This document shows, in pieces, positions 31,849-38,319 of a stretch of 64,000 nt of DNA. The notes beneath the pieces are model-generated. The model had not been told where the DNA came from, made no database searches, and was given only the letters and a program-made list of their open reading frames with translations. How positions within the stretch are numbered: position 1 is the stretch's first letter; the number at the start of each line of letters is the position of its first letter. The position numbers and the translations under genes were made by a program. The stretch is from Haloplanus sp. GDY1 (GTDB taxonomy: Archaea; Halobacteriota; Halobacteria; Halobacteriales; Haloferacaceae): the NCBI RefSeq assembly GCF_023703775.1, contig NZ_CP098514.1, positions 682,001 through 746,000 on the forward strand, in the 5' to 3' direction.

Positions 31849-32961
31849 TCAGTCCACCAGCGCCGCGAGCGCCTCGGTCAGCGCATCGGCCGCCCGCTCC
31901 ACCTCGGCGACCCGGACGTACTCCCGGTCGGCGTGGGCGACGGGACCGGTCCCGTCGGCGAGGACGCCGGGTCCGAACACGACGGTCGGCGCCGGCGAGA
32001 AGTAGGACGCCTCGGTGGCGGCCGTGAAGGGCCGGACCTCGCCGGCCGCGCCGTCGGTGACGCGCTCTGCCGCCGCCGAGAGGTGACGGACGACCGGTTC
32101 GTCGGCGTCGGTCGCGAAGGCCTCGAGGAAGGGGGTGGGGCGCTCGGTCAGCGCGACGTCCACGCCGACGGCGTCGGGGGTGGCGTCGTCGACGGCCGCC
32201 GCCAGCGCCTCGCGGAACCCGTCGGCGGACTCCGGCGGGACGCTCCGTCGGTCGACCGTGATCGCGCAGTCCGCGGGCACCTGATTCGTCGCCTCGCCGC
32301 CTTCGACGACGGTGGGCGTCAGCGTCGCCGGGCCGAGCGAGGGGTGGGGGTCGCGGTCGGCATCGAAGGCGCGGATCGCCGACAGCGCGCCCTCCGCGGC
32401 GGCGACGGCGTTGACGCCCGTCTCCGGTTCGGCCGCGTGGGCGGTGACCCCCGAGAGGGCGACCGTCCCCTCGAACCGCCCCTTGGCGGCCGTACACACG
32501 TCGAGGCCGGTCGGTTCGCCGACGACGTAGGCGTCGCCGTCCGGCGCGTCGACGCCCGGCAGGACCGAGAGGTCGAGCGCCGCCGCGCCGGTGGAGTACA
32601 CCTCCTCGTCGGGCGTCACCGCGAGCGTCAGCCGTCCCGCCGCGGGGTCGGTCCGGAAGAACGCCGCGAGGATGGCCGCGAGCGGCCCCTTCGCGTCGCA
32701 GGAGCCGCGGCCGTGGATGCGCCCGTCGTCGCGGTCGTAGGGAACGTGCGGCGACACCGTGTCGACGTGGGTGTTCAGGACGACGTGTGGCGATCCCGAC
32801 CCCGTCGTGGCGAGCGTGTTGCCCGCGTCGTCGACGATGGGATCGGCGCCGTGGTTCCGGAGCGTGTCGACGAGGAACGCCCGCATCTCGCTCACGTCCT
32901 CGTGGGACTCGATGCGGACGGCCGCGTCGAGGAAGGAGACGGGGTCGAAAGCGTCGGTCAC
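31849..32961 (-). CDS. dapE: Succinyl-diaminopimelate desuccinylase-like M20 peptidase
   Basis: A 370-residue M20 metallohydrolase, last gene of the dap/lys operon, expected to remove succinate from N-succinyl-LL-diaminopimelate. Metal and catalytic motifs: NTHVDTVSPHVPYDRDDGRI, GRGSCDAKGPLAAIL, TPDEEVYSTGA and VVGEPTGLDVCTA; the dimerisation insert with GVTAHAAEPETGVNAV follows. GTG 32961 overlaps the dapF stop (GTGA). Acetylornithine deacetylase is the main alternative, but the operon supports DapE. Confidence 0.9.
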   Translation of the reverse strand: MTDAFDPVSFLDAAVRIESHEDVSEMRAFLVDTLRNHGADPIVDDAGNTLATTGSGSPHVVLNTHVDTVSPHVPYDRDDGRIHGRGSCDAKGPLAAILAAFFRTDPAAGRLTLAVTPDEEVYSTGAAALDLSVLPGVDAPDGDAYVVGEPTGLDVCTAAKGRFEGTVALSGVTAHAAEPETGVNAVAAAEGALSAIRAFDADRDPHPSLGPATLTPTVVEGGEATNQVPADCAITVDRRSVPPESADGFREALAAAVDDATPDAVGVDVALTERPTPFLEAFATDADEPVVRHLSAAAERVTDGAAGEVRPFTAATEASYFSPAPTVVFGPGVLADGTGPVAHADREYVRVAEVERAADALTEALAALVD

Positions 32962-33839
32962 GCGGGGACCTCCAGGTCGACGTCGAACTCGCGCTCGACG
33001 GGGCCGGTCAGCGTCGCCGGGCCGTCGTCGGGCACGACGATGACGAGGTCGCCCCCCGGGGGCGACACCCGGATCGGCCCCTCGGCGTCGAGGCGGCCGG
33101 TGCGCTTCGCCGCGGCGACGACGGCCACCGCACCCGTCCCGCAGGCGAGCGTCTCGCCCTCGACGCCCCGCTCGTAGGTCCGCTGGCGGTAGGCCTCGGG
33201 GGCGCCCGGCGCGCCCGCCGTCGCGCCGTCGTCGAGGTCGACCCGCGAGGCGAGCGTGACGTTCGTCCCCTCGGGGAAGACGTCGGCGTGGCGAACCGGA
33301 GGGGCGAGGGTTTCGAGGTCGACGGCGTCCACGTCCTCGACGAACGCGACGGCGTGCGGGACGCCCGTGTTCACCGCGGTGACGGTCAGGCCCTCGACGT
33401 CCGCCTCGATCAGCGGCCCGGCGTGGTCGTGGGTCAGCGGCACGTCGGCCGGGTCGAACGATGGCCGACCCATCTCGACGGTGACGCCCCCGCTCCGGAC
33501 GACGGCGCGACGGTCGCCGGCGGGCGTCTCGACGACCACCTCGCGGGCGCCCGTCTCGCGGGCCGCCCACGTCGCCGTCACGCGCGCGCCGTTGCCGCAC
33601 ATCTCGGCGATCGACCCGTCCGGCTGGACGAGCGTCATCGTCACCCGGACGGGCGAGGCGGTCGGGTCCAGCGAGCAGAAGAGCACGCCGTCGGCGCCGG
33701 TTCGCTCGCCACCGACGCCCGTCTCCCGGTCGCAGTGGGTCGCCGCGAACGCCGCCCGGTCCACGACCGGCGCGTCGGCGTCCACGACCAGGAAGTCGTT
33801 CTCCGTGCCGTGGTACTTCTCGGCGGCGACGGTCGTCAT
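32958..33839 (-). CDS. dapF: Diaminopimelate epimerase
   Basis: A 293-residue PLP-independent epimerase converting LL- to meso-diaminopimelate. The two catalytic cysteines are in IAEMCGNGARVTATW and GETLACGTGAVAVV. The N-terminus KYHGTENDFLVVDADAP is the family start. Overlaps lysA (ATGA 33836-33839) and dapE (GTGA). Confidence 0.95.
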   Translation of the reverse strand: MTTVAAEKYHGTENDFLVVDADAPVVDRAAFAATHCDRETGVGGERTGADGVLFCSLDPTASPVRVTMTLVQPDGSIAEMCGNGARVTATWAARETGAREVVVETPAGDRRAVVRSGGVTVEMGRPSFDPADVPLTHDHAGPLIEADVEGLTVTAVNTGVPHAVAFVEDVDAVDLETLAPPVRHADVFPEGTNVTLASRVDLDDGATAGAPGAPEAYRQRTYERGVEGETLACGTGAVAVVAAAKRTGRLDAEGPIRVSPPGGDLVIVVPDDGPATLTGPVEREFDVDLEVPA

Positions 33840-35092
33840 CGGTCACCCTCCAGCGCGGTCAGGTCGTCGAGCGTCTCGCGCTCGCGGGCGAGTCGCGGGT
33901 CGCCGTCGATCACGACCTCCGCGGGTCGGGGACGGGAGTTGTAGGTGTTCGCCATCTCGTAGCCGTAGGCGCCGGCCGAACCGACGGCGAGCAGGTCGCC
34001 CCGACGCGGCGTCGGCAGCCGGCGCTCCTCGCAGAACAGGTCGGCCGTCTCGCAGACGGGGCCGGCGACGGTGACCGGGCGCTCGGGGCGCTCCTCGGTC
34101 AGGTTCCGGATGGCGTGGTAGGCGTCGTACATCGCCGGGCGGAGCAGGTCCGTCATGCCGGCGTCGACCCCGGCGACGACGGGAACCGCGCCCGTCGACC
34201 CCGCGTCGTCGACGGGCTTGACCGTGTTGACGCGGGTCAGCAGGACGCCGGCGTCGGCGACGACGTAGCGCCCGGGTTCGACGGCGAGGGCGGCGTCCAC
34301 GTCGCCCAGCGCCTCCCGGGTCGCCGCGGCGACGGCGGGCAGATCCAGGGGTGGTTCGTCCTCGCGGTAGGGGACGCCGAAGCCGCCGCCCACGTCGACG
34401 AACTCCAGGTCGCCGACCTCGCGGGCCAGGTCGCCCATCCGGGCGACGAGTTCGCGGTGAGCCGAGAGGTCGTCGCCGCTGATGCCGCTGCCGGCGTGGG
34501 CGTGGATCCCGACCACGTCGAAGTCCGCGCGGGCGTCGGCCACCACGTCGGCGGCGCGGTCGTAGGGCACGCCGAACTTGGCGTGCCCGCCCGTCGTCAC
34601 CTTCTCGTGGTGGCCGGCGCCGACGCCCGGGTTCACGCGGATCGCCAGCCGGCCGTCGAACCCCCGGTCGCGGAGTCGGGTGAGGGTGTCGCGGGCGCCG
34701 GCCACGACGGTCAGGTCGGCGCCGTCCGCCCACCGCGAGACGACGGTGTCGAGGTCCGCAGCCGGCGGGTTGACCGCCGTGTACTGCACCGCCTCGTAGC
34801 CGGCGTCGAGGGCGCGGACCACCTCGCCCGCCGAGGCGCACTCGGCCCCGAGGCCGGCCTCGCGGACGGTTTCGAGGACGGCCCGGCCGGTGTGGGCCTT
34901 CACGGCGTAGCGGACGTCCGCGTCGGGGAACGCCGCCCGCAGGCGCCGTGCGTTCTCCCGCACCCGGTCGAGGTCGGTGACGTAGAGCGGCGTGTCGTAC
35001 TCGGCGGCCAAGTCCCGCAGGTCGGCGGCCGACCAGTCGGCGAGGCGCCGCACGTCGGGGCCGGCGTCGCCGGCGGCCGCCTCCTCGCTCAT
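33836..35092 (-). CDS. lysA: Diaminopimelate decarboxylase
   Basis: A 418-residue PLP enzyme, final step of lysine synthesis. The PLP lysine is in ADVRYAVKAHTGRAVL, the His-Gly-Ser phosphate site GIHAHAGSGIS, the EPGRYVVADAG motif, and the partner-subunit active-site Cys in AGPVCETADLFCEE. Start ATG 35092 overlaps the dapD stop (ATGA). The long open frame upstream is within dapD and not part of this protein. Confidence 0.95.
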   Translation of the reverse strand: MSEEAAAGDAGPDVRRLADWSAADLRDLAAEYDTPLYVTDLDRVRENARRLRAAFPDADVRYAVKAHTGRAVLETVREAGLGAECASAGEVVRALDAGYEAVQYTAVNPPAADLDTVVSRWADGADLTVVAGARDTLTRLRDRGFDGRLAIRVNPGVGAGHHEKVTTGGHAKFGVPYDRAADVVADARADFDVVGIHAHAGSGISGDDLSAHRELVARMGDLAREVGDLEFVDVGGGFGVPYREDEPPLDLPAVAAATREALGDVDAALAVEPGRYVVADAGVLLTRVNTVKPVDDAGSTGAVPVVAGVDAGMTDLLRPAMYDAYHAIRNLTEERPERPVTVAGPVCETADLFCEERRLPTPRRGDLLAVGSAGAYGYEMANTYNSRPRPAEVVIDGDPRLARERETLDDLTALEGDR

Positions 35093-35922
35093 TCCCGGAG
35101 CGCCTCCTCCCGCCGCGTGGCGTCGCGCGTCTCGGCCTCGATGTCCGTCGCGACGACGGCGGGCTTGTACGCGCCGCCCGCGAAGATGTCGTGGTCGCCG
35201 ATGGAGGATTCGACCATCCGGGTGAAGGCCCGGCGCTCGGGGGGCAGGTGGCCGTAGATCACCTCCTCCTCGACGAGGTCGTAGACGGGGATGCGCGGCG
35301 AGAGCAGCGTGTTCTCGCCGACGACCGTGTTCTCGCCGACGACGAAGCCGGAGGTGACCCGGCAGCCGGCACCGAGCGAGGCGCCGTCCTCGACGATCAC
35401 CGGCGCGTCCTCGACGGGTTCGAGGACGCCGCCGATGAGCGTGTTCGCGCCCAGTTTGACGTTCTCGCCGATCTGCGCACACGAGCCGACGGTGTCACAG
35501 GAGTCGACGAGCGTGCCGTCGCCGACGTGGGCGCCCACGTTGACGAAGGAGGGGCTCATCATGATGCAGTCGCTGCCCAGATAGGCGCCGCGACGGATCG
35601 TCGTGCCGTCGGGCGTGTTGCGGGTTCCGCGCTCGCCGAGGTCGGCCGTCTCGCGGAGCGGGAGGACGTCGTGGTAGTCGACGCCGCCGTAGGCGCGTGC
35701 CTCGGTGGGGCGGAGCCCGAAGTTGAGCAGGATGCCGCGCTTGACCCACTCGTTTGCCTCCCACTCCCCGCCCCGCTTCTCGGCGGCACGAACCTCGCCC
35801 GCCTCTAGCCCGTCGAGGAAGGCATCGAGCGTGTCGCGGTCGTCGGGGGAGGCCGTCTCGGCGTCGACCTCGTCGTCGTCGTAGCGCTGCCACAGATCGG
35901 AGACGTCGGATTCCAGTGTCAT
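35089..35922 (-). CDS. dapD: Tetrahydrodipicolinate N-succinyltransferase
   Basis: A 277-residue left-handed beta-helix transferase that succinylates tetrahydrodipicolinate. The hexapeptide repeats run from about residue 115 (VNVGAHVGDGTLVDSCDTV, IGENVKLGANTLIGGVLEP) to 215 (GENTVVGENTLLSPRI). The N-terminal helical domain is typical of the long DapD form. It commits the pathway to the succinylase branch, agreeing with dapE in the same operon. Confidence 0.94.
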   Translation of the reverse strand: MTLESDVSDLWQRYDDDEVDAETASPDDRDTLDAFLDGLEAGEVRAAEKRGGEWEANEWVKRGILLNFGLRPTEARAYGGVDYHDVLPLRETADLGERGTRNTPDGTTIRRGAYLGSDCIMMSPSFVNVGAHVGDGTLVDSCDTVGSCAQIGENVKLGANTLIGGVLEPVEDAPVIVEDGASLGAGCRVTSGFVVGENTVVGENTLLSPRIPVYDLVEEEVIYGHLPPERRAFTRMVESSIGDHDIFAGGAYKPAVVATDIEAETRDATRREEALRE

Positions 35923-36677
35923 AGTACGTCCTCGAAGTCGTACTCGCCGGCCGGGCGGCCGACGAGCCAGTCGGCGGCATCGAGCGCACCCTCGGCGAAG
36001 ACGCCGCGGGATTCGGCGCGATGCGTGAGCGTCAGTACCTCGTGGTTCCCCGCAAGTAGTAGTTCGTGTTCGCCCGTGACGTCGCCCGCCCGGCGCGCGT
36101 GGACGCCGACCTCGCCCTCCTCGCGGGGCTGTTCGCCCTCGCGGCCGTGGACGCGGTCGGCGGTCCCGTCCCGTGTCCGGTCGACGTCGTCCAGAATCGT
36201 CAGCGCCGTCCCCGAGGGTGCGTCCCGCTTGCGGTTGTGGTGGGTCTCGGTGAGTTCGGCGTCGTAGTCGGGGACGGCGGCGACGGCCTCGCGGATCGCC
36301 CGCCGGAGCGCCGCCACGCCGCGGGCGAAGTTCGCGGCCCGGAGGACCGGGACCGCCTCGGCGGCGTCGGCGATCACCGCGAGTTGCGACTCGGAGAAGC
36401 CCGTCGTGCCGACGACGGCGGCGACGCCCGCGTCGGCGCAGGCCTCGACGTACCGGGCGCTCGGGTCGGGGACGGTGAAGTCCACCAGCACGTCGGGGTC
36501 GCGCTCGTCGAGGAGGCGCGGCAGGTCGGCCTCGTCCTCGATTTCGATCCCCTCGACGGGGCCGACCGCCGTGCGGTTGACGGCGAGGGTGACGTCCATC
36601 CCCTCGCGGTCGGTCGCCGCGGCGAGGACCTCCCGGCCCATGTGGCCGCCGGCGCCGGTGACGGCCACCTCGATCAC
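35919..36677 (-). CDS. dapB: 4-hydroxy-tetrahydrodipicolinate reductase
   Basis: A 252-residue NAD(P)H-dependent reductase. The dinucleotide motif is VAVTGAGGHMGREVLAA at the N-terminus; the catalytic segment ELTETHHNRKRDAPSGTAL holds the His-His pair and the Lys. The dimerisation part LTLTHRAESRGVFAEGAL follows. Overlaps dapA and dapD by 4 nt. Confidence 0.95.
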   Translation of the reverse strand: MIEVAVTGAGGHMGREVLAAATDREGMDVTLAVNRTAVGPVEGIEIEDEADLPRLLDERDPDVLVDFTVPDPSARYVEACADAGVAAVVGTTGFSESQLAVIADAAEAVPVLRAANFARGVAALRRAIREAVAAVPDYDAELTETHHNRKRDAPSGTALTILDDVDRTRDGTADRVHGREGEQPREEGEVGVHARRAGDVTGEHELLLAGNHEVLTLTHRAESRGVFAEGALDAADWLVGRPAGEYDFEDVL

Positions 36678-37570
36678 GCTTCGGCCTCCACCGGATCGAG
36701 GTCGGCGAGGACGGCCTCGAGGTCGGCGCGGAGGTCCTCGGAGAGGCGGGTGAGCGGCGACCGGACCCTCCCGGGGCCGTAGCCGCGGATGGCCATCGCC
36801 TCGTTGACCGGGATGGGGTTGGTCTCCCAGAACAGGGCGCGCATCAGCGGCCCGAGTTCGTGGTGTCGCTCGCGGGCGTGTTCGTAGTCGCCGTCGAGCG
36901 CCGACTGCACGAGGTCGACCGTCCGCTCGGGTTCGACGTTGGCGACGACGCTGATCGTTCCCGCCCCGCCGACCGAGAGCGTGGGGAGGATGAGGCCGTC
37001 GTCGCCCGCGAGCACCGAGAACTCCTCGTCGCGGGTGCGCTCGACGATTTCGGACACCCGATTCAGGTCGCCGCTCGCCGCCTTGTAGCCGCGGACGTTG
37101 GGGTGGGCGGCGAGGTCGACCGTCGTGTCCACATCGACGTTCCGGCCCGTCCGTCCGGGGACGTTGTAGACGATCTGTGGCAGGTCCACCTCGTCGGCGA
37201 TGGTTCGGTAATGCTCGTACATCCCCGCCGGTTCGGGCTTGTTGTAGTACGGCGAGATGAGGAGGAGGCCGTCGGCGCCGGCCTCGGCGGAGCGCCGGGA
37301 GAGCGAGAGCGCCTCGGCGGTGTTGTTCGATCCGGCGCCGGCGATCACGGGCACGTCGACGGCGTCGACGACGGCCTCGACGACCTCGACGTGCTCGTCG
37401 TGGCTGAGCGTCGCGCTCTCGCCGGTCGAGCCGACGGGGACGAGGCCGTCGACGCCGGCGTCGGCGAGCCGCTGGGCGTCGTCGCGGAGCAGTTCGAAGT
37501 CGATACTGCCGTCCTCGTGGAACGGCGTGGTCATGGCGGGGTAGACCCCGCGGAACTCGGATAGCGTCAT
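36674..37570 (-). CDS. dapA: 4-hydroxy-tetrahydrodipicolinate synthase
   Basis: A 298-residue TIM-barrel aldolase condensing pyruvate with aspartate semialdehyde, first gene of dapA-dapB-dapD-lysA-dapF-dapE. Signatures: VPVGSTGESATLSHDEHVEV, VIAGAGSNNTAEALSLSR, the Tyr in IVYNVPGRTGRN and the Schiff-base Lys in VRGYKAASGDLNRV. No dapC, aspartokinase or asd gene is near. No Shine-Dalgarno precedes ATG 37570; a weak TATA-like CTAACA lies about 25 nt upstream and a much stronger TATA about 214 nt upstream. Confidence 0.95.
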   Translation of the reverse strand: MTLSEFRGVYPAMTTPFHEDGSIDFELLRDDAQRLADAGVDGLVPVGSTGESATLSHDEHVEVVEAVVDAVDVPVIAGAGSNNTAEALSLSRRSAEAGADGLLLISPYYNKPEPAGMYEHYRTIADEVDLPQIVYNVPGRTGRNVDVDTTVDLAAHPNVRGYKAASGDLNRVSEIVERTRDEEFSVLAGDDGLILPTLSVGGAGTISVVANVEPERTVDLVQSALDGDYEHARERHHELGPLMRALFWETNPIPVNEAMAIRGYGPGRVRSPLTRLSEDLRADLEAVLADLDPVEAEA

Positions 37571-37630
37571 TGTTGGGTGGGTGTCGTCTGCGCTGTTAGT
37601 CGTGTCGGAACGGATCGGCCGAAAGACGCC

Positions 37631-37748
37631 CGGGACGGGGTCGCCACTCCCGCCGCGAGCGGTGTCACCGGTCCCGTTTTTTCAGAAGAGCCGCGAGGCC
37701 ACCCGTCGCTGTCCGAACGTCGTCGGACGCGAGCGCGGAAACGGGTGG
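37631..37748 (-). ncRNA. Candidate structured leader of the dap/lys operon (two stem-loops)
   Basis: On the minus strand, stem P1 pairs CCACCCGT (37748-37741), CGCT (37735-37732) and GTCCGA (37728-37723) with the continuous strand TCGGAC-AGCG-ACGGGTGG (37716-37699): 18 base pairs, a 6-nt loop and bulges only on the 5' side. Stem P2 pairs CGGGAC (37676-37671) with GTCCCG (37636-37631). The pairings are exact in the sequence; that they form in RNA and control dapA is inference. P1 could instead be a terminator of the gene ending at 37795. Confidence 0.5.
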
Positions 37749-37757
37749 CGGGGTCAC
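37665..37757 (-). CDS. Putative 30-residue leader peptide ending with tandem lysine codons
   Basis: A GTG-initiated frame of 30 codons plus TGA begins 27 nt downstream of the best TATA box of the region, so it would be leaderless. It ends ALLKKRDR, with Lys-Lys encoded AAA-AAA, a rare codon choice here. The codons lie immediately before the 5' arm of stem P2, and stem P1 is inside the frame. Position before the lysine operon suggests sensing of charged tRNA-Lys by ribosome progress. It may be a chance frame; it is short and has no known homologue that I recognise. Confidence 0.4.
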   Translation of the reverse strand: MTPPPVSALASDDVRTATGGLAALLKKRDR

Positions 37758-37779
37758 ACGTACAATGGCGGTGGCACCG

Positions 37780-37788
37780 AATTTATAC
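37780..37788 (-). promoter_or_regulatory. Strong TATA box, likely promoter of the dap/lys leader
   Basis: The minus strand reads GTATAAATT, one of the best TATA matches in the window, just after the stop of the gene at 37795. It is centred 27 nt before GTG 37757. Because the core is nearly symmetric, a plus-strand transcript antisense to the gene at 37795 is also conceivable. Confidence 0.55.
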
Positions 37789-37794
37789 TTTGTG

Positions 37795-38319
37795 TCACGG
37801 GGACGACCGCTCTCCTCGCTCCGTCCGGTCCACCGTCAGGAGGACGCCGCCGAACAGGAGGAGGAAGACGACGCCGAGCGGAATGGGGAGGCCGGGGAAC
37901 CCCCGCGACAGGAGGAGGGACGTCGCCGCCGCGAAGACGACGCCGGTGCCGAGGAGGAGCGCGCCGAGGAGGCGCACGGGGTCGACCGGCCACGATTCGG
38001 CCCACGACTCGCGGCGGTAGTAGACGACGGAGACGGCGAGCGCCGCCAGGAAGAGCGCCGCACCGACCCCCCAGACCTGATAGGCGAGTTCGAGCCCCCG
38101 TCCGCGCTGGAAGGCGGCCGCCGAGAGCGGGTCGGCGACGGCGACCCCGGCGGCCAGCGGGACGCCGAAGTTGTACCGCACCTGCAGGAGCGGGAAGCGG
38201 ACGAACAGGAACGCACCGCCCGCGACCCCCGAGACGTACGTCAGATTCCACGGGATCAGCGCCGAGAGCCACGTCGTCAGGACCGCCAGTTCGCCAGCGT
38301 ACTCCGACCGGACCCACAT
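37795..38319 (-). CDS. Haloarchaeal membrane protein of unknown function (about five helices)
   Basis: A 174-residue membrane protein. Hydrophobic helices are at about 10-32 (ELAVLTTWLSALIPWNLTYV), 33-45, 52-64, 80-100 and two close helices at 118-160 (LLLGTGVVFAAATSLLLS, IPLGVVFLLLFGGVLLTV). The N-terminus MWVRSEYAGELAVL is a pattern I associate with conserved haloarchaeal proteins, but I cannot name a function. A TTTTATT box 25-32 nt upstream of ATG 38319 supports a leaderless start. Confidence 0.75.
   Translation of the reverse strand: MWVRSEYAGELAVLTTWLSALIPWNLTYVSGVAGGAFLFVRFPLLQVRYNFGVPLAAGVAVADPLSAAAFQRGRGLELAYQVWGVGAALFLAALAVSVVYYRRESWAESWPVDPVRLLGALLLGTGVVFAAATSLLLSRGFPGLPIPLGVVFLLLFGGVLLTVDRTERGERSSP

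Follow-up and report, generated by a model that had tools for sequence, protein, structure and literature searches.

The window analysed is a 64,000-nt stretch of the Haloplanus sp. GDY1 genome, in which the lysine (diaminopimelate) operon lies on the minus strand in the order dapA-dapB-dapD-lysA-dapF and is preceded by a short open reading frame (mini-ORF) and two RNA stems (Table 1). The TATA element CACAAAGTATAAATT is centred 27 nt 5′ of a GTG start codon at 37757, and the frame that opens there translates as VTPPPVSALASDDVRTATGGLAALLKKRDR*, with the C-terminus LLKKRDR. A first-pass annotation made from the DNA alone had described this arrangement, and its promoter, its leaderless 30-codon frame with tandem AAA-AAA codons, the bulged stem inside that frame and the dapA start lacking a Shine-Dalgarno sequence were all recovered. 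The second stem was also present, but it starts 3 nt past the stop codon and not, as had been stated, directly after the Lys codons. Neither a Shine-Dalgarno sequence nor a second TATA element was found ahead of dapA in the window. The DUF7549 gene occupies the position upstream of the leader in close relatives only.

Table 1. Features of the dapA leader region and operon in the Haloplanus sp. GDY1 window.
Feature	Position	Strand	Support
DUF7549 / TIGR04206-like (near_ArtA) gene, upstream neighbour of the leader	37795-38319	-	
BRE/TATA promoter CACAAAGTATAAATT of the predicted leader-dapA transcript	37780..37794	-	sequence and alignment of 166 loci
Leaderless leader-peptide ORF, GTG start, 30 codons, TGA stop	37665..37757	-	counterparts in 166/166 distinct loci
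Stem 1 within the ORF, 9+4+6 bp, one-sided bulges, ends 5′ of the Lys codons	37698..37749	-	
Tandem Lys codons AAA-AAA, proposed stall site	37677..37682	-	
Hairpin 2: 6-bp basal helix, mismatch, 6-bp apical helix, URGC loop	37627..37661	-	models R1, A6
Hairpin 2 apical helix (loop 37640-37648)	37649-37654 with 37634-37639	-	
Hairpin 2-dapA spacer, C/A-rich before the start, without TATA or Shine-Dalgarno	37571..37626	-	
dapA, ATG at 37570, first gene of the lysine (diaminopimelate) operon	36674..37570	-	TIGR00674, 320.9 bits
dapB, dapD, lysA, dapF, end-to-start overlaps	32958..36677	-	TIGR00036, NF008808, TIGR01048, TIGR00652, all above cut-off

Folded alone, the leader region was no more stable than its shuffles (z +0.6, single sequence), and Rfam scans returned no family match for it; the lysine riboswitch model RF00168 gave no gathering match, and the only weak Rfam match was Atu_At1 (E 5.7). 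Since the single-sequence fold was uninformative and no Rfam family was found, comparison among genomes had to decide. When the intergenic region was compared with 79 relatives by BLASTN, the part of it that proved conserved was the end of the mini-ORF together with hairpin 2, adjoining dapA. A covariance model of hairpin 2, built from 29 sequences and used with a threshold of E up to 0.01, matched 342 of 391 class Halobacteria genomes in 81 of 86 genera, mostly once per genome, and in a 295-genome sample of the phylum none of the 43 matches lay outside the order. The window genome has one strong match, the next-best scoring 22.9 bits. Second matches occurred in 26 genomes, and most were weak, at about 35 bits or below, with the exception of one tandem duplicate, at G324:C1:444882-444960, whose copies score 36.6 and 37.3 bits.

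When dapA loci were fetched blind to the leader (from Haloplanus, Haloarcula, Natrinema, Halorubrum, Natrialba and others), all 80 had the hairpin shortly upstream on the same strand. Both the mini-ORF and the hairpin were present in all 166 distinct dapA upstream regions examined, with 37–217 nt between hairpin and dapA; the sequences are related, so these locus counts are not independent events. Eighteen further genomes of the order, either missed by the model or outside its sample, carry a close dapA: 17 of them gave a hairpin match at the right place with E of about 0.08 or better, the remaining one (L225) gave a weak match (E 1.6), and a Lys-ending mini-ORF was seen by eye in most. No leader element was seen by eye in four deep lineages with more divergent dapA (f2, f9, f11 and f15). 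In genome G087 the only dapA homologue is 40% identical and lacks the hairpin, consistent with the lysine pathway reported missing in Halobacterium salinarum (PMC8305020). The alignment of relatives that the first-pass annotation had proposed thus showed the frame, the Lys codons and covarying stems to be kept in close relatives and in nearly the whole class, and on this sequence evidence almost every member of class Halobacteria carries the element.

An ORF ending at the hairpin was found at once in 163 of the 166 loci, and an ORF meeting both the start and the stop windows in 160, compared with 0.9% of dinucleotide shuffles. Together with a hairpin covariation score above all 500 shuffles, this disposes of chance, which had been listed as an alternative. 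Lys makes up 20.8% of the last ten leader residues and 0.2% of the rest, while the corresponding values for Arg are 18.8% and 14.4%. The leader Lys codons are AAA or AAG in a ratio of 313:39 (89% AAA), in contrast to 22:426 (5% AAA) in the downstream dapA genes. They cluster 5 to 9 codons before the hairpin 2 stem, the first nucleotide of the last Lys codon lying 14–19 nt before it (5–95%) and the stop codon about 5 nt before it. Five loci (L132, L136, L083, L076 and L110) have lost the stop ahead of the hairpin, and their ORF continues to a UAG in the loop; the Lys spacing is kept in these, suggesting that the position of Lys matters more than that of the stop. The body of the peptide varies, with 808 non-synonymous against 492 synonymous single-change codons, and its conserved part is the basic tail (KKR, KRKR) beside the stop. 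The low-GC genomes (loci L223-L225; G016, G337 and G340) keep the hairpin in very different sequence and have no clear leader start codon. L223 and L224 use AAA in dapA and AAG for the apparent Lys codons of the leader, as counted on few codons and from a candidate start only; L225 has no clear Lys tail.

Hairpin 2 was paired in 96.6% of cells among 99 distinct sequences, eight of its 12 pairs showed two-sided compensatory changes, and its covariation score also exceeded that of all slid controls. One G.U and one C-G pair of the apical helix were invariant, and the loop keeps a U followed by a purine, a G (99 of 100 sequences) and a C, reading UGGC in about 65% and UAGC in 35% of 100 sequences. 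The invariant loop and pairs indicate that something probably recognises the hairpin 2 loop. Stem 1 recurs at the same position in other clades, in sequence that is unrelated (mean z −1.54, 90 loci), and 87% of its cells were paired in 33 same-length leaders vs. no more than 48% when slid. The folds inspected around stem 1 and hairpin 2 revealed no conserved pairing that would compete. Three further roles for the hairpin were tried and rejected. For a loop pseudoknot, complements of the loop were not clearly enriched upstream and were depleted in the spacer (21 vs. 54 expected loci with a 5-mer). If the loop paired with the NCCA end of a tRNA as in a T-box, it would have to read UGGN, which the 35% of loops reading UAGC rule out; a −1 frameshift site (A AAA AAC before the hairpin) was ruled out by other clades having AAACGCAAACGC.

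Across the 166 aligned loci, a common BRE/TATA element lies at about −37 to −25 from the mini-ORF start, and it was the only conserved promoter signal. The promoter weight matrix gave a median score of 17.6 at the mini-ORF vs. −0.6 in the spacer between hairpin and dapA (shuffled spacer, −1.3), and 35 of the 166 spacers scored above the 5th percentile of the mini-ORF promoter scores. The last 30 nt before dapA are rich in C (44%) and A (33%), and a Shine-Dalgarno-like motif was found before dapA in only five of the 166 loci. The single promoter signal points to transcription of dapA from the leader promoter and to translation of the leader beginning right at the 5′ end of the transcript; in Haloferax volcanii, 72% of protein-coding transcripts are leaderless (PMC4983044). 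A U-tract terminator was not conserved, four or more T following the hairpin in 14 of the 166 loci, so that a bacterial-type intrinsic terminator is unlikely.

The ORF, the position and codon bias of its Lys codons, the hairpin, the spacing and the single promoter were thus demonstrated by sequence comparison, and it is probable that this layout serves ribosome-mediated sensing of lysyl-tRNA, with control of the dap/lys operon as its outcome. The transcript would begin at the start codon of the leader, and translation would proceed without a 5′ UTR. When lysyl-tRNA is plentiful, the ribosome would pass the Lys codons and finish at the foot of hairpin 2 or within it, its front at the stop occupying the basal helix's 5′ arm, so that this helix is held open. 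When lysyl-tRNA is scarce, the ribosome would stall with a Lys codon, usually the rare AAA, in the A site, its front would halt a few nucleotides before the stem, and hairpin 2 would stay folded. The front of a bacterial ribosome reaches about 12 nt past the first base of the codon in the A site, and from such bacterial footprints we infer that the spacing may let the position of the ribosome decide whether hairpin 2 folds. Because starvation should raise dap expression, the folded hairpin would be the ON state, a 'lysine short' signal permitting dapA expression, and lysine itself would presumably be what regulates the operon. The output could be factor-dependent termination or dapA translation. 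A Phe-ending leader ahead of pheS (below) speaks in favour of the sensing of lysyl-tRNA. Counting against it, only about two Lys codons are used per leader; moreover, the conserved loop and the invariant G.U suggest a binding partner, which plain attenuation does not need. On the same side stand the missing U-tract terminator and competing structure, the unclear start codons of the three low-GC genomes with the unclear Lys tail of one of them, and a published table of Haloferax volcanii upstream ORFs from which dapA is absent.

The same features bear on several other explanations. What is conserved of the peptide is the basic tail adjoining the stop, and ribosomes are reportedly slowed by nascent chains with positive charge (PMC3595205). 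Inside the exit tunnel the tail itself could slow or arrest the ribosome, with free lysine perhaps acting as the ligand, and not through a lack of charged tRNA. We regard such nascent-peptide control as unlikely: Arg does not substitute for Lys though both are basic, Lys is nearly absent elsewhere in the leader, the AAA bias is a signal at the codon level, and the stop can shift into the hairpin loop. Arrest-peptide switches such as TnaC and SpeFL likewise control a downstream gene through the ribosome by means of a leader peptide, but the rest of the dap peptide varies freely, unlike known arrest peptides, and only its Lys codons and spacing are conserved. Assignment as an arrest peptide was accordingly rejected, as the N-terminal part varies where conserved tunnel residues would be expected and the stop is not fixed, lying in the loop in five loci.

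Recognition of hairpin 2 by a ligand or protein, as in a riboswitch, with the mini-ORF merely keeping the hairpin accessible, would account for the invariant loop U and C with a purine between and for an invariant G.U in an otherwise covarying stem. It is very unlikely, since the hairpin is only about 35 nt long and has no Rfam match, and the Lys enrichment, the codon bias and the fixed spacing would be left unexplained. The first-pass annotation had also considered a separate small RNA and a terminator of the gene at 37795. Stable hairpins with their own promoter would suit a non-coding RNA such as an H/ACA guide, and the Haloferax volcanii H/ACA hairpins (HP1/HP2) are separated by a spacer (PMC2584109). 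This origin is highly improbable, as the frame and the Lys codons are conserved, the hairpin precedes dapA by 37–217 nt throughout, and no Rfam family matched; the guide RNA in particular was set aside because of the codon-level conservation, and no H/ACA-type guide pocket was seen by eye in the conserved hairpin. A terminator of the upstream gene falls under the same low estimate, as that gene is divergent in 80 of the 166 loci and leaves nothing there to terminate.

In bacteria, it is textbook knowledge that a ribosome translating a leader peptide can control amino-acid genes. Similar to the bacterial attenuators (trp, his, thr, ilv, leu and E. coli pheM-pheST), the dap leader has a short ORF with cognate codons near its end, immediately followed by a hairpin and placed before a biosynthetic operon, or before the PheRS gene in the case of pheM-pheST, with the promoter upstream of this product-codon-rich ORF and the first structural gene downstream of it. 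It differs from them in being archaeal, in its leaderless start at the first bases of the transcript and in its strongly conserved hairpin loop. The layout of ribosome-mediated attenuation proposed at first pass stands, but a trp-type transcription attenuator was not borne out: neither a U-tract terminator nor a conserved competing hairpin was found, and for this reason the leader is not a textbook attenuator. The AAA bias of the dap leader is a possible use of a rare codon for sensitivity, shared with the bacterial attenuators (compare the theory in PMC1183508). The Corynebacterium ilvBNC leader (PMC10272879) likewise combines a conserved upstream ORF and RNA structure before an amino-acid operon, but it is bacterial and concerns branched-chain amino acids. 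The lysine riboswitch (L box, RF00168) also precedes lysine genes, while the dap leader is far smaller, encodes a peptide and has no Rfam match. No archaeal ribosome-mediated leader-peptide control was found in the open literature searched, nor any earlier description of a haloarchaeal lysine version, so its novelty, as first claimed, holds there; a study of haloarchaeal transcript starts found control by structured leaders not to be typical (PMC4983044). If the sensing of lysyl-tRNA is true, transcription and translation of archaeal leaders would be coupled enough for regulatory use.

Other amino-acid genes of haloarchaea were also scanned for such leaders. Upstream of pheS, a mini-ORF ending in a run of Phe was found in 20 of 30 haloarchaeal loci (L272-L297); in the window genome it reads MAPEPATTDSLAREATALGFGFFFDA* (L297, ending GFGFFF) and lies upstream of pheS at G000:C1:2132621-2133532 on the minus strand. 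Phe makes up 31% of the last 12 residues of these leaders vs. 1.6% elsewhere, fractions inflated by selection because only frames with three or more Phe among these 12 residues had been accepted as candidates. The hairpin behind the pheS leader differs from that of dapA and was poorly resolved by alignment. In the list of upstream ORFs for long 5′ UTRs of Haloferax volcanii, pheS is present and dapA is absent (PMC4983044). The Phe-rich ORF is likely a second amino-acid-specific leader. The chances are about even that the two represent a haloarchaeal class of leaderless amino-acid leaders (Lys/dap and Phe/pheS), each with a hairpin, in which a starved ribosome would preserve the folded hairpin as a positive signal and no intrinsic terminator would be prevented; ribosome-mediated attenuation would then exist in Archaea with a mechanism different from that of bacteria. 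Scans of LEU1 (leuA-type), lysS and trpS revealed no conserved cognate leader, and no Trp leader was recognised when the sequences upstream of trpD were read by eye. A conserved element of the type tgtatagatttgttcatcgtaacccgaactaatacactggtgttcat, probably an operator, lies just before trpD in loci L239-L265.
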